From: Polytrichum commune
Taxonomy: Eukaryota > Streptophyta > Polytrichopsida > Polytrichales > Polytrichaceae
DNA length: 64,000 nt
Assembly: GCA_950295325.1 (NCBI GenBank)
Contig: OX485807.1
Location: 12,861,001 to 12,925,000, forward strand
Reading direction: 5' to 3'
Position 1 is the stretch's first letter, and the number at the start of each line of letters is the position of its first letter. Made by a program: the position numbers and the translations under genes. A model generated the notes under the pieces. The model did not search any database. It saw only the letters and a list, made by a program, of their open reading frames with translations, and was not told the origin of the DNA. Positions 840 to 54,830 of the stretch are shown here, one piece after another.

Positions 840-1411
840 AAGGTATATGGTCTTATTGTGGGTGCTTCCAACTCCATACATAGTTTTGGCCATTGGAGCG
901 AACCAAGAATTGTTTCATGCAGTTAGTGATTGCAAAGCACAAAGATTTTCAAAGGCGGAGGTGAGATGCAAAAGTTGCAAGAGTCCAAAAGTGAGGATTC
1001 TCTTTCTCTTGAAACAATTAGATAGATAGAAAGATAGATAGAAACTCCGGTCCCTTTTTAGCAAGGGGCCGGCGTGAATAAAGTGTCCGTTCGTAATGTC
1101 TCTTGAAACAATCACATAGGTAGGTCTTTCTAAATGTGTTAACTATCAAAACCATATTGGTATCTATATTTTGAGAACATAGTCCCACCCCATCGTAACA
1201 CATGTTGTTGTTTTTAGTGTTCTAGGTTAACGAGAAGGAGAATCTTCACTTTGGACTCTTATAACTTTTATATCTTTACTTCAATTCTAAAACTTGAAAT
1301 GATATAATCTTTGTGATTTGCAATTACTAAGCGGATGAAAGAAATCCTGAGCCGATCTAACAACCAATAATGTGTGTGGGGTTGGAAGTGCCCACAATAG
1401 GGGCCCATACC
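840..1411. mobile_element. Inverted-repeat element (TWA-type flanks) holding a LINE insertion
   Basis: The arms at about 842-955 and 1300-1411 are imperfect inverted copies over roughly 110 bp; both contain a GTGGG-type stretch next to CTTCCAAC and a stretch reading AATCTTTGTG or its complement. The flanks are TAA (837-839) and TTA (1412-1414), suggestive of PIF/Harbinger-type 3-bp targets although not identical. An 80-bp LINE 3' end is inserted at 1019-1098. The right arm is repeated again at about 1588-1770. Confidence 0.6.
1019..1098 (-). mobile_element. 80-bp LINE 3'-end insertion with 14-bp target-site duplication
   Basis: A perfect 14-bp direct repeat, TCTCTTGAAACAAT, flanks it at 1005-1018 and 1099-1112. 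Read on the minus strand the insert holds CGAACGGACACTTTATTCAC, then a hairpin (1047-1072, CCGG and CCCTT arms), then a tail of TATC/TTTC repeats. The same order of parts, with related sequence, ends the LINE at 20.6 kb and in looser form the one at 38.9 kb, so this is an extremely 5'-truncated copy of that family. Tail and duplication show target-primed reverse transcription. Confidence 0.8.
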
Positions 1412-3183: not shown

Positions 3184-3569
3184 GGCCAAGCCCAAAGTCC
3201 AAACCATACCATTTGCCCGACTTTTATCCATCTCTCTCTTCATTAATCCATCCAATTTATGAATTTTTCCTCTCACCATCTTTAGTCATGGATTTAAGAA
3301 GGAAACACATTCTTGCTCTACTCTCTATTTTCATGGCCATAAAATATGTAATTGTGGGTATTTTGACATTACAAAAATTTGCAATTTTTGAACAAAATGC
3401 CCAAATGATGACAACAATTTTTATTGCCCAAAGATGGAGGGTGAATTTTTTGCAACATTACAGTTGCAAAAAATATATACAAAATTGTAGTAGTTTAATG
3501 ACTGTAGATAAGGGTGGTCAAAAGAACTACAATGGGAAAACGATTGCGGTTTTTTTTTGCATAGTTTTC

Positions 3570-4305: not shown

Positions 4306-4616
4306 TTTCTTCAGTCTTGGACCTTTGTGTAAACCCATCCTCAAGGCTTTAAAAAAAACAATGCACATGACTCATCAGACTGATCAGGGCACAGGCGTAC
4401 AGGAACGCCAACCCAAGCCAAACAGGGACAAAGAGCTTGAAAGGAGATGGCGGCGCCTTCCCCTGTATCGCCATAGCCGCATCTCCACCCTCTCCAAGCC
4501 TGACATTCAACCTCCACATACACCACAACCACGATCAAATCACAATCACAAACAAAAACAGAGAGAAAGCGAGCAACAGAAACAGAGAGGGGAGAGGGCA
4601 GGCCCTTTGGGGCAAG

Positions 4617-7600
4617 ATGGACAACATGGTGGTGACCGCAGCGAAGATGGTGCAGAGCGAGGAGAAGAAATCCGTGGTCTTAGTCCTCGACTTCGGCTCG
4701 CAGTACACACATCTTATAACTCGCCGCATTCGCAGTTTGAACATCTGCTCTTTTTGCTTACCAGCAGGGACACCCATGCCCGCCATCCAGGCTTTACATC
4801 CTGCGGTCATCATTCTCTCTGGCGGCCCACACTCCGTGCACATCGAAGGCTCCCCAACAGTTCCTGAAGGTTTCTTCGAGTACGTAAAGGAAAATGGCAT
4901 CACTGTGCTGGGAATCTGCTACGGGTTGCACCTCATTGTGAAATTGCTAGGTGGGACAGTGACCCAGGCGGAGAGCCAGGAGTATGGGCGCATGGAAATC
5001 ACCGCTGTGAAGGGGAGCAGGCTCTATGGTGATGCGGATAGTTTCCCTAACCAGACTGTGTGGATGAGCCATGGTGACGAAGCTGTTAAGTTGCCCCCGG
5101 GATTCTCAGTTGTGGCTACAAGTTTGCAGGGGAACATTGCTGCCATCGAGAATGCTGAGGCTAACATCTATGCTCTCCAGTACCATCCTGAGGTAACATC
5201 CTTCTGTAAACCCTCTTTGGTTATATTCAATATGTGGTTGAATTTGTAAGGGTTTAAGGCTCTGCTCCAATTTGTGAGGGTCTGGAGGTTCGAATCGTGC
5301 ATTCTGGGGGCGGGGGGGTCCTTAACCTCTTGTGTGTGGTTGCTATGTCTGCTCAAGAGGAGATGGTATCATCATGGCATGCATTTCGTAGAGAGGAATG
5401 CAAATTTTAATTTAAAGAATGTAAAGAGGCATGAATTCCAATTTTTAAGGGTTTAAGGTTTAGGGTCCAATCTGTTAATGGGTTTAAGGTTTGTGGTCCA
5501 ATTTGTAAGAGTTTAAGGTTTAGGGTACAATTTTTAATGGGTTTAAGGTTTGTGGTCCAATTTGCAAGGGTTGGGAGTTTAGATTCATTCATTTTAGGGG
5601 GGCGGAGGTCCTCAACCTCTTGTGGATGGTTACTATGTCTGCTCAAAGAGGAGATGGTACTATCATGGCATGCATTCTGCAAAGAGAAATGCAAATTACT
5701 TTGTCACATAATAAAGGTGATTGAGGAATTAAATAAGTTGTCTCTGTGGGTTGTGCGTCATCAGCAATGAGTGCTCAAAGATATTGAGATGACCATGTCA
5801 CTCTTGTTTGTCATCACTATGCTGCTTCTTTCATGCTTATTTGCTCCCAAAATGCAAGCATCAGGTGAATTGATAATTTATGTTGCATTCGGCAGGTCAC
5901 TCATTCTGAGAAGGGAATGGAGACTCTGAGGCATTTTCTGCTGGATGTGGGTGGTATCTCGGCCGACTGGAAACTGCAGGATGTTTTGACAGAACAGATA
6001 GACCTTGTCAAGAAGACGGTTGGTCCAGATGATCACGTCCTTTGTGCCCTATCAGGGGGTGTGGATTCAACTGTGGCTGCTACTCTGGTGCACCGTGCAA
6101 TTGGTGACAGGCTGCATTGTGTGTTTGTGGACAACGGGCTTTGTAGGTAGTGAATTTGGAGCTTTGTCTACCGCATTTTTGATGGATTGCCGGCATACAC
6201 AATTCCACGTTGCTCGATTTTCGTTTGCATCTTACAGATTTCTGTTATCGAAGATTTTATTGGCAGACTATCTTGGTTGAGTGTATCCAAGAATTGTAGA
6301 AGAGGAACTTTCCATATACCTTCTGAAGAGGGTAAGTACTTGATGATGTTCCTGTACAGATGAACCTGTGGGTGGATAAGAGAATAGGCAACACTTTCAC
6401 TTGTAGGGTTCATCAAAGGCTTGATCTGTGTACTGAGGGGTTTAGGGAACTCTGTTGGTTCAGGTACAAGGAACAAGAAAGGGTGATGGCTACATTTGAG
6501 AAAGATCTGCACCTGCCAGTGACATGTGTGGATGCCACCGAGCAGTTTCTTAGCAAGTTGAAGGGTGTGGTGGACCCAGAAAAAAAGCGCAAGATCATTG
6601 GAGCTGAATTTATTGCTGTATTTGATGAATTTTCTCACAGACTGGAGAGAGAAATTGGGAAGAAACCCGCTTTTTTGGTGCAGGGAACTCTATATCCAGA
6701 CGTAATTGAGTCCTGTCCTCCTCCAGGGAGTGGGAAGTCACATTCACACACCATTAAGAGTCATCATAATGTAGGTGGATTGCCCGCAAATATGCAACTG
6801 AAATTGGTTGAGCCCCTTAAATGGCTTTTCAAAGACGAGGTACCTTCCCCCCTCTGCCTATCTTTATTCAATGTGTTCAATTTCAGTTAGTAATATGACA
6901 TGGTCATTAGAGATTGGAAAATAGTTTATATGCCTTTTCTAGATATAGTGAGTCCTAGGTTTTGTGGTCTTCAAGGCAGTGACAAAGCTCAAATTGTGCA
7001 GGTTCGCAAATTAGGTGCTCTGCTAGATGTTCCACAATCGTTCTTGAAGCGACATCCTTTTCCTGGACCTGGTTTGGCTGTACGTATCATTGGTGATGTG
7101 ACAGAAGGCAATGCACTGGAGACTGTTCGCCTGGTACGCACTTCTTACTTCTCATATTGGATGTGATTTTCATGAAAATAGCTGGTCATGGACTGGGAAA
7201 GTTGTGATAGAATGGATAGTTTTATGTCTTCTATGGTCACATGATTAGTTATTTTCTTGTACACCAGTTTTAAGGATCTTGACCCTTTTCGGTTTGGTTG
7301 ATCAGTGTGTCTTTTGCTTATATTGAGGTTTACCATGGGGATTGGGCAGGTTGATGAGATATTTATAAACAGTATCCGAGAAGCAGGTCTGTATGACGAG
7401 ATCTGGCAAGCATTTGCAGTTCACTTGCCAGTGAAGACTGTGGGTGTCCAAGGAGACAAGCGGACCCATTCTAATGCAGTTGCTCTGCGGGCAATTACCA
7501 GCGAGGATGGCATGACTGCAGATTGGTAAGCTTTTCAACTTGTGCATGGCATCTTGTTCACTTTCATGCGAGGGGTCAGCAATCATTATTTTATGCCTAT

Positions 7601-10358: not shown

Positions 10359-11526
10359 CTACACCTTGTAACCTGTGAACGTACCACCCCGTCCTGCAAT
10401 CTCTCCAACACAGAACCAGGCATAGCATTCTCCTGTAAATAAAGCTGCAATGGCAACCTCCTCCAACTTCAGGTCATTTCGTGACATTAACTTCTGCTTA
10501 ACAAAGTCCACTTCCTTCCATAGAGCCTCGTATCTCCCTGGCAAACTGCATTCCAATGCATGACACAGTAATCAGACACAGAAATTAACCAACAACCTGC
10601 ATATATGGTTAGCTCGTGAAGTTTGGTTTGATAATGTAACAAAGAAGGAACACATGAAGGCCAAAAACTACTAAGATTACCACCAAAATGTCATTATCGC
10701 ACCCTAAATCATCAGTCCTGCAGCCTCATTGTTCCGATAGAAGGTGCTCTGAGTAATTGTGGTATCGGCTTGCTTTTAATGTAAGCTACTCAAATCACAT
10801 CCCTAGACAGCAATTTGAACCACTAAGTCACATCCTCGTCTCCCTTCCACGATTAGCTTTACAATGGATAAATCCATGCGCTTTCAATAAACCCTAAGGT
10901 CAGACTGGCTGAGAAACAAAGTCACCACTACGCCAAGTCTAGACAACCGCCGGAAATTCTTATGGAATGCAATAAAGAGTTCGCTGCATCATAAATGATT
11001 ACAGCAACCAACAATCGGTGAATCTACGTCACGCATTAAGCCGGCCCACATCTGCCTCGGGAAAGATGCAAAAACTTTTGCTTCTCCAACCAGATGATAA
11101 GAGATCCAGGACATTCAACATGTGATCACATAAACCTGCTAACGACACATCCACATCCCCCCGCTCCTCTTCTCCCGTGACACACAGGCCAGCTACCGAA
11201 CTCCATCAAGAACCAGACCTTAGGGTTTGGCCACCAAGGGCACCGGTGATCGAGAAAACCCTAGAATTAGCATGTCCAATGACGGAGGAGGGAATTCGAT
11301 TCAGTGCGATAGGTAGGGCGGGAATGGAACGGGCTGTAAAAAACCTGGCGAGGCGGGTGTAGAAGAGCTGCTTGGAGAGCTCCTGGCATTTTTGCACCGT
11401 AGGTGGATCCTGGATGTACTTCTTGTTCTCCTCGAGGAGCTGCTTGTAATAAGCAGTGCCACGCTTGGTGGCGATGTCCGTGGCCACCGATGCCTTACTC
11501 TGCAACTGCCGCATCAAGGACGCCAT
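10359..11526 (-). CDS. Mitochondrial ATP synthase subunit g, 2 exons
   Basis: A small membrane subunit of the mitochondrial F1Fo ATP synthase that helps form enzyme dimers at cristae edges. Exons on the minus strand are 11526-11345 and 10545-10359, joined across a 799-nt intron with GT/AG ends, giving 122 residues, as in other plant homologues. The N-terminal stretch AYYKQLLEENKKYIQDPPTV and the join reading RLAS-LPGRYEALWKE are characteristic. The C-terminal hydrophobic segment carries the GxxxG dimerisation motif (Gly108 and Gly112, GEIAG). It starts 1.25 kb from the divergent COX5b gene. Confidence 0.92.
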
Positions 11527-20442: not shown

Positions 20443-20571
20443 GTACATGTTGACATCCTTTGGTTTTCCTTTATTAGATTGGGGTATATACTATGAATTC
20501 CTCTAAAATGGTCGGTAATTTTCATGCAGTCTTGAACTTCAACCGGTTATTCCTCAAACTCAACCGGTTCA
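20443..20571. repeat. Dispersed repeat with AACCGGTT palindromes, left part
   Basis: From TACATGTTGACATC onward this matches 46,391-46,530 and, briefly, 23,095-23,125. Two AACCGGTT palindromes lie 22 bp apart near its end. The repeat continues after the LINE insertion at about 21,763-21,800 (ACTAACTACCGGTTCTCC). Class unknown; a solo-terminal repeat is possible. Confidence 0.5.
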
Positions 20572-21762
20572 GAGAAGAGAGAGAAGAAACTTCGATTCCC
20601 GGGGGGACCGACGTGAATGAAGTGTTTGTTCGTTCCACCCCTAGTCCTATGTCCACGGGACATAGGAATAGAAGTAAAGAACTATTTCCCCCTTTCGAGA
20701 GTAGACACTATAGTCACAAGTAACCAATAACATATAGCAGCCAATACCCAATAGAACGAGTACAAATAAGGTTTAATTAGTATAGGGTTTGTTTTGTGCA
20801 GGGTTTAGACATCAGGTCATGGTCTCATTGTTGTGTGGAGAGGGCGTCTTTCATAATACAACTTTTGAGTCATCTAGGGGGGTCTTGTATTTGTGGTAGA
20901 GGTTGGTGATTTTCTAGCCTTCTTTTGTGGAGGAGGATGGACATGGCGTATTGTATGGCAATGGTATTGATGTTTTTGAAGGTATTTCGGATGGATGGCA
21001 TAGGTAGTTTGAATTTGTCTTCAAGTAGTTTCATTGATGGAATGTGTGCTGCGGCTATGGCGCCTACTGTAATAACAATGAGCGGATCAATTTTCCAGCC
21101 TAGAGCAGCAATGTTTTCTATCAATGGCTTGTATTTGTTAGCTTTAGCTTCTAGTGTTTATGGTGAGAATCTGTCATTACAGTATGTGAATTCAATGAAT
21201 TGTATGGTAAGAGTTTGGTCTATATTTGTGGGGGGTTCATTTTGATATGGTAACCCTATAACGCAAAGAATGTCGGGTCTAAATCGAGAGTTACACTGGC
21301 ATCTTTGGGTTCCACATGTGCAGGGTAAGAGCCAGTTAGGGACGGTGTTTTCTTGGGGGTTGTCATTAAAGGTACCAGCGTTCATGAGAGTGTAGCATTG
21401 GGATTTTTCGGAAGAAATTAGTAATTTTTTGATTTCCCATACTGCTTTGTTATGTCTTTTGATGTGTAGTGAGTGAATATGTTGTTGCCTACATGTGAGT
21501 AGTACATGTAGCCATGTATCAGGTTCACATGAGTTACAAATAGGACAGGTGATGGTGGGGAATCTTTGTCTACCAAAGAAGGTTTGTTTTCTGGCTTGGC
21601 CCATGTAGGTTCCGGTACGGAATTTGATAAGGCATGATTTTTGCTTGTCCGTAATGGTAGGGTTATTCCAAAATTCATTGGAAAGTTCCTTGTCAATGTC
21701 TTCATTGCCTGTCCATTTACAAATATTGGGGGTTTGTGTGGCCATAGTTTCTAAATTGTTTA
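20572..21762 (-). mobile_element. 5'-truncated LINE, RLE type (CCHC finger plus PD-(D/E)xK-like endonuclease)
   Basis: Twelve-base direct repeats TCAACCGGTTCA flank it (20560-20571 and 21763-21774). On the minus strand the coding remnant runs from about 21,760 to 20,870. It holds a finger CPICN...DTWLHVLLTC followed by IKRHNKAV, as in R2-like retrotransposons, then RPDILCVIG, IQFIEFTYC, KYKPLIENIAALGW and LIVITVG, the layout of the restriction-enzyme-like endonuclease of that group. The reverse transcriptase is missing by truncation, and the frame is broken once near 21,155. The 3' region has a hairpin (20593-20610) and a pyrimidine-rich TTCTC tail. Confidence 0.8.
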
Positions 21763-21799
21763 TCAACCGGTTCATTTGTAACTAACTACCGGTTCTCCC

Positions 21800-37991: not shown

Positions 37992-38924
37992 TGACACGCC
38001 CAATAGATGGGTAACCATTATAAACATGTATTATGGCCTTAACTTATATCCAAATCTAAATTGTATATTATGCCCCAACAATATCATAGATACATGGCCG
38101 CATCTATTATCTATATGTTCAAACACACACATAAAGGGATTGCAAATAACACGCCATAATAAAGTAGTCCACCAAATCGTACATGCACTCCAATCAAATA
38201 AACACACAACATACTATACACTTGTAAATGTATGCCACCAAAATTCTAGACCACAAAGACAACACAAGTCCACAATGGCTACTCCAATGGACATGTCCCA
38301 CTATATCATGCACATGCCTAACCAAGCTGAGAGCAGATATATTATGTGTACTAGGTGCTCCCACAGACAACTAGCCCCCTTTAAGGCCTACCCCATCACA
38401 CACCATACAATTGATCGAATTCACCTATTGTCATGGCAAATTTCCAGATCATGCATGCAGTGAAAAAACCGTTAAATACAATCCACTTATACACACACTC
38501 AGAAGAGCCGGCTGGCACGTCAACAATCTCATCATCATCACAGTAGGTGTTAGAGGAGCTATTCACGAACAACCAATTAAAGAACTATAAAAACTAAAAA
38601 TACCCAAAACTGAGGTAAAAACGCTTATGAAACATCTACACCAAATTGCCATCAAATACCTCACATAGTAAATACTAAACAAAAGGAGGTTAGACAACAA
38701 ACAACCCCCAATAGGACCCCCCCCCTGTACCCCATATACCCCACTAGACATTAGGTACTACACCCCTTCAAAAACTTTAGGAGCCCACTTCCCGAGAGGG
38801 AGGAAGTACTCCTATGGTGAAGCTTAGTCGAACATGAACACGGTAAAGAGGAATGGGCTCCCAATCACGTTCGTCGGAGTACAAGCCAACCTCCGATGTT
38901 ACTTTTATTTATTTATTTATTTTA
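37992..38924 (+). mobile_element. 5'-truncated LINE of the RLE type, second copy
   Basis: The plus strand carries NCILCPNNIIDTWPHLLSIC, then ITRHNKVVHQIV, matching the finger of the 21-kb copy. After one frame change come ADILCVLG, IQLIEFTYC, KYNPLIHTLRRAGWHV and LIIITVG, again collinear with that copy. Several stops occur in the last part. The 3' end has a hairpin (CGTCGGAG/CTCCGATG, 38872-38898) and a TTTA-repeat tail. More diverged than the 21-kb copy; no target duplication was found. Confidence 0.8.
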
Positions 38925-41378: not shown

Positions 41379-42610
41379 CTAACCAAAGAAGCGAGGAACC
41401 GAGCCCTTAATGCTCTTCACTGTCTTGGCATTGATGCCGAACGACTTCTCCAGAACGGCGCTCGGAATGCCAGTCTCAAACACTTGGTTTGCAGTCATAA
41501 AGAACCCCGGGCTTTGTGAGGTCAGAGTGTTAAACGTGATGGCAGTTTCATTCCCAACGTTGAGCTGGAAATGCTGGGTTCCCTTTGGGAAAATGGTGAG
41601 GTCCCCAACCTGCAGGGTGGAAGCATACAACACGTCGTCATCGCTGACGAAGCCCGTGTAGATCGATCCCTTCAGCACAAAGAGTGTCTCTGCTGCAAGC
41701 GGGTGGGTGTGGACGGGGATGACGCCACCAATGCCAAAGTCGAGTCTGAGGTGCGAGATGCCTTGAGTGTTCACCCCTGGAAACTCAGTCACAGTTGCCA
41801 ATGTGAAAGTAGCATTCGTGCCAGTGATGGAAGGATCGGAAGCTGGTGGAACATCATGGACAGCACACGATGTCAGGGGCTCATGTTTTGCACCAAAAGT
41901 AATAAGGTGAGTTTTTTTTTCTTCTCTTTTCTTACCTGCCATGGTAATCAATGCCCTCCTTATGATCTAAGTCCATTATTTACAGGATGTCTTCAACTTA
42001 AAATCTAGATAAACCAAACAAGAAGCGATGCGGCATTCCTTCATTGTGACTTGTGCAACCCAGATACTCATAAAAACAAAAAAAACAAAACACTGTAACG
42101 TCCCACTATCGGAGATTGCAGTACAGTTCTTTAGTCAAGAGAAATGTGCAGCTAACTGCTGATACATTGACTGGTGTAATCTCTGAAATTGGAATACTAC
42201 TTAAGTGAGGATCAACTCCACAAATTGATTAACGGGTACGTATGCCATGGTTGTGCACTGGTGCTTATCAAGGCTGGCATTAGAGCAAGCGTCCGCAGCT
42301 TCAAGTAAGATACTTATAAAACACATGGACCTTGAGTTATCCATAATTGCGACAATTAATTACCATAGCCAGCCGGCCCGCTTCGAAGACCCGTGAACAG
42401 GAAGTCCGCCGCTGTCACATTCGATCGCAATTTGCAGGGGTGGCCATTCACACGTGGTGCATTCGCAGAGAAGTCAGCCACACAGAAATCTTGCAAGGGG
42501 TCAGGATCGGAAGCGTGAACCAACACTTCATGATGCACAAGCAGGCAAGAGAATGCCAAGAGGATCATCACCCAAGTGCCGCGTCCATTGAGCTCATGCA
42601 CGCTCTCCAT
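41379..42610 (-). CDS. GLP: Germin-like protein (secreted cupin), 2 exons
   Basis: An apoplastic cupin; family members include superoxide dismutases and, in cereals, oxalate oxidases. The activity of this one is not shown. Exons on the minus strand: 42610-42364 and 41842-41379, 236 residues. A signal peptide (hydrophobic 14-25) likely ends near Ala33, before [12 protein letters not shown]. Cys43 and Cys59 would form the family's disulphide. Metal ligands are His127, His129 and Glu134 (HTHPLAAE) and His173 (GTQHFQLN). NVT, NAT and NET sites could be glycosylated. I chose the acceptor before 41842 because it restores the usual spacing of the family; an upstream acceptor at the CAG before GGTAAG (about 41,936) would add ~30 charged residues. 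Confidence 0.9.
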
Positions 42611-52767: not shown

Positions 52768-53560
52768 GACACTTTTATATTTTGTTTTATGTGAATTTTT
52801 GAGGTTACAGATTGATTCGTCGTGTTGTATAAGGAAGAAATACCATAACCCGTGAAAATAAGGTGATTGGTCTGACAATCATGAGATAATTTTTCAAGAT
52901 AGACGAGAAGGATTCGTGAAGAATGCAAGTTGTTTCATATTTTTTCTGCCCTATACAAAAAAACGCTACAATTTTTCAAAATGGAATGTTGTCCAACCCC
53001 CTACTCGTTCACTAGATTCTCCCTACACAAAACACGGTAATTCGCATTTCCATACAGAACATCGCCTAAATCGGTTACCTCATGAGTACATTAACACTTG
53101 ACTCCCATTGGCTACACTAAGTGTACACGCATTGAAGTTGCCGCCGAGCCATGATCCGTTTTAGAAATGGCACTTCACCATTATGATGGGGGTCTAGTGC
53201 ATGGCTAGAGGGTGATAAACGGGTTATGGTATTTCTACCTTAAAGGCCCACATGGTGTTTGGTGGCCTACGTGGTAGAAGGGGGTTTCCATGATGTGTGG
53301 TTTTTCCGTCCCTTGTTTGCCTAGTTTGTTGGCTTCATCATTACAATGGATATTTGTGTAGGCTCTAACTTTTCTAATGGTGATGTTATGTGTGGAGGTT
53401 TTGATGACATTTATGATTCTTGCTATTAGCAGTTTGTATGGGTATTTGATGTGGTTGAGTAATATATATATGCTATTAAGACTCTCTCATTGAAGCTAAA
53501 TGTGTTTGTGGGGATATTTTTGGTGTGTTCTATTGCCAGTAGTAGTGCATAGAATCTAGC
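52750..53560 (-). repeat. Dispersed repeat, copy with MITE insertion
   Basis: Both sides of the insertion match 31,250-31,637 (AACATTAGGACACTTTTATA before it; TTTCCATGATGTGTGGTTTT after it). The repeat continues rightwards into G/T-rich sequence that the other copy lacks. Confidence 0.7.
52833..53239. mobile_element. MITE inserted in the dispersed repeat, ~407 bp
   Basis: The terminal inverted repeats are GGAAGAAATACCATAACCCG on the left and GGTAGAAATACCATAACCCG on the right, read inward. The flanks are TAA and TTA, near a PIF/Harbinger target. The copy at 31.25 kb lacks the insertion. No coding capacity. Confidence 0.75.
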
Positions 53561-54830
53561 TATGAGAATATTTGGGTATCCAAATAATTTGGCTAGTATA
53601 TGTACTTTCGATGGGCCATTGTAGACTCATGTGCCTGCAATGCTCCCATTTCCTAGGTGGTCTCAAGTTGGGGGGGGGGGGTGGAAGGAGCCATTTCCAT
53701 AATAGGATTGGGAGGGGGTATCCAATGGGGTGTATAATGGTATGGATTGGTGGTGATGAGGAGTTATGTCACTTTTGGGGGGAGTTGGGGAATTAGGTTA
53801 TGTGTGTATGTATTGTGGGTGTTAGGGTAGCTAATGTTTGTAGTAGTGTCGTTGAGAGTGGTTGTAGGAAGGCAAGTATGTCAGCGTGATTTGGGGTTTG
53901 TGAAATAGCTAATATGGAGGTGAGTGCAAGTTCTTTAGAGTCATAGTAGGTGAGGAGTGTGAGTGAGATAGTGTATTCTATTGCGTTGGGTGGGCCGGGG
54001 GGGGTGGTGTTGTGATCATTGGGATTACATTTGGTTGTTGAAGCGAGTCAAAAATGTTATGGGTTTAATGATCATGGTTAATGATTATTATGGTGGTTGA
54101 GTTGGGGGTGTTTGAGCAGCTAATCATGCCCATTTTATGATTTTTGTTGCCAGGTGGAGGTTTGCAATGTGTATTGGGCCGTGCCCTAACCATTAGAAAA
54201 GGTTGGGCCACTTGACATGAAAATAACAACTCTTTGGTGTGGTGAGTAGTATTGTGTGAAAAATTTGGGGCAGGTGAGGGGCCTAGAGAATTCTGAGTGT
54301 GTGAGGTGGAATTTGTCAATGATGTTGTCTAGTATAGTCGAGGGGAGGGCGTGGTGTTGTGTAGGGGAGGAAATTGTGGGTGGAGGACGATGTGGTAGTG
54401 GTTTTATGGATCTATTTATTAGGATTAGTACTTCCATGGAAAAATCTTAAGTGGCGGTGAAAGGTTGGATGAGTTTGTGGATTGAGTATCGTTCCCATAG
54501 CTATGCCAACCATTCTAGTGGGATGGAAGTTTGGTAGTTGCCATTGTGGTCGTGTATTTGGGCTAGTGGGGGTGTAGTTGTATAGGGGTGTAGTTGTGAT
54601 GGTGTTTTTGTTCAAGTTGCATTCATTTATATGTAGGGCGAGGTGGGGGATGAGTAGGCTTGGGCGTATGTATTGTCTGTCTTTGGATTGTGGGGTGTTT
54701 TGACTGTCCAATTTTGTACTTCTCACATTTTGTACTTTGGTCTTAGGGGGTGCACCCAATGTGGCATGTACAAAACCATGTGGGTGCACAAAAGGGATAT
54801 TAGTTTTGCCCATGATTTATAGAATATACC
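53561..54830 (-). repeat. G/T-rich block, A/C-rich on the minus strand, possible LINE remnant
   Basis: The plus strand is strongly G- and T-biased. Minus-strand frames are rich in Thr, Pro, His, Asn and Gln, like the LINE at 38 kb. No conserved motif could be placed, so relation to that LINE is a guess. A run of 13 G lies near 53,664-53,676. Confidence 0.35.

Follow-up and report, generated by a model that had tools for sequence, protein, structure and literature searches.

The feature at 20572-21762 of the 64,000-nucleotide stretch of DNA analysed here (the window) is a dead, 5′-truncated LINE insertion. Judged together with its relatives in the same genome, it very probably belongs to a LINE of the Dualen/RandI type that is abundant and recently active in a land plant, most likely a moss. 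Intact copies of this LINE combine an APE endonuclease, reverse transcriptase (RT), RNase H, and a CCHC knuckle with a putative restriction-enzyme-like endonuclease (RLE) in one open frame. The initial annotation had singled out, as notable, a plant LINE family with an RLE-type C-terminus, and this part of it is upheld by the motifs, their order, their conservation and selection. Dualen had been named there solely as a profile to search against.

The ends of the window copy are set precisely by a perfect 12-bp repeat (TCAACCGGTTCA) on its two flanks. Over 885 bp the copy aligns to the full-length element L039 (positions 10587-11471) at 77.9% identity. Its remnant of ORF2 is interrupted by a single in-frame TAA (21158-21160), and a 207-aa open frame on the minus strand (21158-21781) holds most of the motifs that had been named before. 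The CCHC, RHN, RPD, IEFTYC and KY motifs were all found on the minus strand; by hand, RPD was placed at 21280-21272, the E of IEFTYC at 21193-21191 and K-A-N-K-Y at 21145-21131. The copy and its parts are listed below.

20572-21762, minus strand: Dualen-like LINE copy, 5′-truncated, 1,191 bp (12-bp target-site duplication and alignment to L039)
20560-20571, no strand: target-site duplication TCAACCGGTTCA, adjoining the 3′ end of the copy (flank comparison)
21763-21774, no strand: target-site duplication TCAACCGGTTCA, adjoining the truncated 5′ end of the copy (flank comparison)
20876-21757, minus strand: C-terminal 294 residues of ORF2, 81% aa identity to L039 ORF2 2332-2625
21491-21547, minus strand: CCHC zinc knuckle, C-x2-C-x9-H-x4-C (translation of the copy)
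21449-21457, minus strand: RHN motif (translation of the copy)
21131-21280, minus strand: putative RLE catalytic motifs RPD, E (IEFTYC) and K-x2-K-Y (translation; KX2KY rule, PMC5678591)
20592-20875, minus strand: 3′ UTR with a short inverted repeat at its end (about 20592-20612, by eye)
20572-20591, minus strand: pyrimidine-rich 3′ tail in place of poly(A), directly abutting the 12-bp duplication

A TCCC...GGGATCGAAGTTTC arrangement similar to the end of this 3′ UTR was seen at the 3′ ends of L012, L021, L023, L029, L034 and L038. Two further remnants of ORF2 were identified in the window.

38026-38704, plus strand: second CCHC-RLE copy, more diverged and frame-shifted (tblastn, 40-44% aa identity to L039 ORF2 2390-2616)
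53253-54699, minus strand: third remnant, highly decayed, with PCIF1-like and RNase H parts (tblastn, E 5e-16 and 9e-7)

The initial annotation had described two collinear copies, at 21 and 38 kb. Both are real, and the order of CCHC, RHNK, IEFTYC and KY...GW is kept in the 38-kb copy; the latter is broken, being spread over two reading frames with several stops, and has RAD(IL) where the window copy has RPD(IL). Elsewhere in the window, 77 bp (1022-1098, minus strand) are 88% identical to the extreme 3′ end of L039, with no further L039 match alongside. This fragment may be a copy truncated almost completely, or else the tail of a SINE-like passenger. By eye, two host genes were recognised: a glutamine amidotransferase resembling the one in GMP synthase (4371-5249, plus strand) and a germin-like cupin (41379-41966, minus strand).

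The genome searched comprises 408 Mb in 64 contigs, the window being positions 12861001-12925000 of contig C5. At least 150 places, the window copy included, matched the 207-aa frame at E 7.5e-115 or better; 150 were scored out of 4,309 first-look candidates, and the true copy number is above 150. The 149 scored copies besides the window copy are 82-94% identical to it. They are found on all seven large contigs and on two small ones (C36 and C50), where the places score the same as places on C6 or C4 and are possibly duplicate assembly. Given the number, identity and E-values of these relatives, the motifs of the window copy are not due to chance. The family is abundant in this genome, and it is young and recently active.

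Three copies (L039, L040 and L041) have one open frame of 2,625 aa each (stop to stop), and in L061, which has a longer leader, the open frame extends over at least 2,857 aa of the stretch examined. L039 and the neighbouring stretch (L050) form a single element, 11,965 bp long and flanked by 12-bp duplications (TCCATTCTTAAC); L040 and L041 showed no flanking duplication of at least 9 bp. Among full copies L039 and L040 are the most alike, with 99.55% identity over 11.9 kb; both are therefore young. L041 starts about 1.2 kb later than these two. Short tandem repeats lie near the 5′ end of L039, and at its 3′ end a small hairpin (by eye) is followed by (TATC)n, the tail of the L039 subfamily.

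The autonomous element is about 12 kb long and has two ORFs. ORF1 of L039 is an open frame of 747 aa with an RRM-like stretch, recognised by eye; Pfam scans of the ORF1-like ORFs of L046 gave no family. The ORF2 frame overlaps that of ORF1 by 22 bases, an arrangement at which frameshifting or reinitiation is possible. At this junction the first in-frame ATG of ORF2 is at codon 50. The genome also contains a second family (L045, L046 and L047), in which the domain order is the same as far as the copies extend; at the amino acid level it is 38-48% identical to L039 in the parts compared. Copies of this second family have the 5′ part of ORF2, including its 2A-like motif, twice in tandem, 0.4-0.8 kb apart (positions 3290 and 3752 in L046, 2998 and 3799 in L047, and 3678 in L053 with 114 in L045). 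The domains of ORF2 in L039 are as follows, in residues.

277-285: 2A-like motif GDIEPNPGP (motif)
about 504-750: APE (Pfam match under the cut-off, and motifs)
1063-1470: RT (Pfam, PDB)
about 1705-1765: chromodomain-like (weak PDB/Pfam match)
about 1856-1985: PCIF1-like (Pfam)
2139-2279: RNase H (Pfam)
2402-2420: CCHC (motif)
about 2450-2625: putative RLE (motifs)

RVT_1 (2e-29), RNase_H (PF00075, 5e-13) and PCIF1_WW (5e-8) were over the Pfam cut-off in L039. Exo_endo_phos was under the cut-off in L039 (9e-4) and likewise in L045 and L047. In L045, Exo_endo_phos_2 was over the cut-off (1e-7; 32.3 vs 27.4 bits), RVT_1 and RNase_H (1e-14) were matched, and PCIF1_WW (3e-6) was under it. QETK, GDFNRD, LIDGFY and SDHYP, which we take to be the APE active-site set, are all present in L039. 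When searched against PDB, the APE region of L045 gave nothing below E 0.45. YADD was found in the RT of L039, and D-E-D-H-D in its RNase H. L039 also contains PGPD, which lies in the RT0 loop of RLE LINEs (PMC5678591).

Five PDB sequences were matched by the RT of L039, all of them R2, with a best score of 107 bits. Three are labelled R2; the other two (8gh6 and 8ibw), with the label reverse transcriptase-like protein, are presumably Bombyx R2. No L1 was among the matches at E <= 0.01. An L1-like LINE of the same genome (L048), used as the control, scored 202 bits against human L1 ORF2p and 56 bits against R2. This is a ranking of PDB matches, not a tree, and it fits an RT position outside L1; membership in L1 was rejected on this comparison. 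By eye, L048 (4282-9816) has a CCHC ORF1, and its ORF2 frame, unusually long at 1,845 aa, has a long extension past zf-RVT.

Matches to D[VI]xxNPGP number 12, spread over 10 of the 17 loci of at least 4 kb. The stricter published 2A pattern, D[VI]ExNPGP (PMC4981915), fits 8 of these 12 occurrences. No protease family, and with it no cysteine protease, appeared in Pfam scans of L039, L045, L047, L042 and L061, of which L042 and L047 are incomplete copies.

On balance, the C-terminus is probably an RLE, as judged from its motifs, their order, their conservation and selection. The RLE of LINEs is a unique PD-(D/E)XK variant whose catalytic lysine is supplied by the first K of KX2KY, in the second helix, and it is preceded by a CCHC knuckle with the published spacing CX2-3CX7-8HX4C (PMC5678591). 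The four knuckle ligands, RHN, the P of PD, the E, both K and the Y are invariant in an alignment of 17 relatives (the window copy not among them; one row just 46% identical), and the D of PD is kept in 16 of the 17. The knuckle of the element, CX2CX9HX4C, is one residue longer than the published spacing. The knuckle and RHN are collinear with the R2 chain 8gh6 beside the RT match, at 0.1 bits, which is not significant.

Alternatively, the element could be an L1-like or I-like APE LINE that ends in a knuckle and a non-nuclease domain with just a resemblance to an RLE; we consider this improbable. Such a reading draws on the presence of knuckles at the same place in APE LINEs (PMC5678591) and on the failure of fold prediction: AlphaFold, run on the RLE of the window copy with three window rows, gave a mean pLDDT of 39 and no confident fold. 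It also draws on the profile searches of this region, which had been proposed in the initial annotation. The C-terminal alignment had no Pfam family over the cut-off and no PDB sequence match up to E 10, and searches with the RLE alignment gave single-member matches alone, at E 0.27 or worse. The lack of a profile match at the C-terminus had been named in the initial annotation as a refutation, and this outcome did occur; we know of no Pfam model for LINE RLEs, and the result was therefore given limited weight. Viral contigs scanned with the RLE alignment yielded 20 pattern matches, none of them a relative. Against a mere resemblance stand PD, E and KX2KY in the published order, retained as described above even in the row of 46% identity, together with an RT nearer to R2 than to L1 and a dN/dS of 0.05-0.07 in the RLE region.

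The latter value is from the comparison of L039 with L042 or L057, in which dN/dS from RT to the end was 0.03-0.14 (RT 0.06-0.07, PCIF1-like 0.09-0.11, CCHC 0.03-0.04). Between L045 and L047 it was 0.10 for APE, 0.08 for RT, 0.14 for the PCIF1-like region, 0.19 for the chromodomain-like region and 0.17 for all. These values are rough, pS being 0.49-0.73 and near saturation, and that for APE is from the second family only and that for RLE from the first family only. Nonsynonymous change is clearly suppressed, which indicates strong purifying selection in the regions compared.

At 7 of 12 loci (the window copy, which is L009, and L012, L021, L023, L029, L034 and L038) a clear duplication of 9-16 bp directly adjoins the tail end; no clear one was found at the other five (L018, L028, L035, L037 and L054). 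One of the three intact copies, L039, has a clear duplication. The eight target-site duplications are unrelated, apart from a T that often comes first and may be part of the tail. Since the duplications have no common sequence, the element is not aimed at one site, and site specificity was rejected. The 5′ truncation and the duplications would fit target-primed reverse transcription.

Because APE and RLE stand in the same frame of intact relatives, together with RNase H, the plan is that of Dualen/RandI and not of R2/NeSL. APE is upstream of RT, RNase H is present, and the RLE, recognised by motif only, is downstream in the same protein. The plan lacks a detected cysteine protease, and Dualen was reportedly described by Kojima and Fujiwara in 2005 with a cysteine protease domain. 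We treat the protease as variable and not as defining, since the Dualen group is defined by APE and RLE (PMC3636483, PMC4640811).

The R2/NeSL layout had been the reading of the initial annotation, and a LINE of the R2/NeSL/R4 type with the RLE as its sole endonuclease would account for the CCHC-RLE motifs at the C-terminus and for an RT that is nearest to R2 among solved RTs. Full-length relatives were looked for, and the APE endonuclease found in them, in the same open frame as the RLE, is an outcome that the initial annotation had itself named as refuting and runs counter to this reading; so do the two ORFs, the RNase H and the unrelated insertion sites. We regard such a LINE as very improbable, and membership in R2/NeSL was rejected on the APE and RNase H of the intact copies. 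Contamination, algal or otherwise, or one recent horizontal transfer is hardly credible as the source. Such an origin would suit the other hosts reported for Dualen, which are green algae (PMC4438587, PMC8226300) and cryptophytes (PMC12747079); against it are the spread of at least 150 copies, 82-94% identical to the window copy, over all seven large contigs, a second family at 38-48% aa identity, and decayed remnants within the same window. Contamination was rejected on the presence of copies on all main contigs. The spread of copies, the second family and the decayed remnants point to long residence of the Dualen/RandI-type LINE in the genome; an old horizontal arrival is possible.

LEAFY domains were also identified in this genome, at 4 places for PF01698 and as 6 exon matches at three places for PF17538, with none in 14 control genomes. 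One exon (L058, C1:40571425-40572195) has as its closest PDB sequence 4bhk, which we take to be Physcomitrium LEAFY 1 (197 bits vs 182 for Arabidopsis), and keeps H and R as in Arabidopsis. At those places the copies L059 and L060 have D and C, as in 4bhk; these residues mark moss LEAFY, and by them the host is probably a moss. The seven large contigs might suggest a moss with n = 7, such as a member of the Polytrichaceae.

Between RT and RNase H the element has a chromodomain-like and a PCIF1-like region. PF12237 (PCIF1_WW) exceeded the cut-off in L039, L042, L046 and L061; in L045 and L047 it stayed below. All 12 rows of an alignment of the region matched this family at E <= 10, the best at 1.4e-11, and in the genome at least 150 places were over the cut-off, the best at 55.6 bits (150 scored of 697 candidates). 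A profile of the region, searched against PDB up to E 10, had two matches only, both PCIF1 (E 0.02 and 0.49). PCIF1/CAPAM is a cap-specific adenosine methylase with the catalytic motif NPPF. The element shares with it about 80-100 residues, including F-[AS]-S-P and F-G-S stretches; it differs in that its domain sits in a LINE polyprotein and has A-[HF]-P-x-x, in all 12 rows, at the place of A-N-P-P-F of the second match, in an alignment that is weak (E 0.49). A catalytically normal PCIF1 is not supported, as NPPF is missing, and because of this replacement methylation by the domain appears unlikely unless another residue took over. No element-encoded PCIF1 was found by title or abstract opening among papers on PCIF1 and retrotransposons. 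The chromodomain-like stretch had a weak PDB match to CDYL2 (E 0.019). Pfam Chromo scored 12.8-14.8 bits, under the cut-off, and was found in 4 of the 12 rows at E 0.028 or worse, five rows not extending that far.

A possible course of transposition can be proposed from these parts. It would proceed by target-primed reverse transcription, with the 2A-like motif freeing ORF2p from its leader in translation. The first strand would be nicked by one endonuclease and the second strand by the other, and the RNA would be cleared by RNase H. The PCIF1-like domain, without NPPF, may bind RNA or the cap with no methylation, and the chromodomain-like part could bias insertion towards certain chromatin. 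A wider proposal, which we hold to be rather doubtful, is that a land-plant lineage captured a PCIF1-like cap-recognition domain and a chromodomain, that these would select capped full-length RNA and steer integration, and that two endonucleases of different origin would cut both strands, so that RLE-LINE, APE-LINE and chromovirus-like targeting would be united in one protein.

The element described here shares with Dualen/RandI the combination of APE with RLE, an RT, an RNase H and a 3′ tail of short repeats; it has (TATC)n and pyrimidine tails, and there are (ATT)n and (CTTT)n tails in SINEs with RandI tails (PMC3747384, Table 2). It differs in its land-plant host, in its PCIF1-like and chromodomain-like regions, in its 2A-like motif, and in that no protease was found. 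With RLE-only LINEs (R2, NeSL, R4, CRE, HERO and Utopia) it has in common a CCHC followed by PD...E...KX2KY, an R2-like RT, and PGPD, whereas those LINEs have no APE, one ORF and mostly site-specific insertion. Plant L1 (e.g., L048) likewise has APE on the N-terminal side and two ORFs; L048 differs in having no tblastn match to the RLE region and an RT closest to human L1.

Plant LINEs had been described in the initial annotation as mainly L1 and RTE, and the same superfamilies are listed in a 2022 review of land-plant transposable elements (PMC9033089). In a 2015 survey, Dualen/RandI is given from green algae only, in the part of the text available (PMC4438587). Two LINE families are reported from Physcomitrium patens, their clade being unnamed in the available part of that article (PMC7466625), and one of them could be of the Dualen kind. 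Among the matches listed for literature on RandI, LINE and moss, there was no transposon paper by title. Within the open-access literature searched, a Dualen-like LINE with a PCIF1-like domain and a 2A-like motif in a land plant is new; bryophyte Dualen entries may exist in Repbase.

The presence of a large young family in a land plant, with some copies intact, would bring the embryophytes into the host range of Dualen/RandI. Its many copies allow us to ask why the element keeps two endonucleases, and since purifying selection is seen in the APE as well as the RLE region (in different families), a division of labour between the two strands can now be tested. A cap methylase may have been reused as an RNA-binding part of a retrotransposon, as is suggested by a PCIF1-like domain that lacks the catalytic motif.
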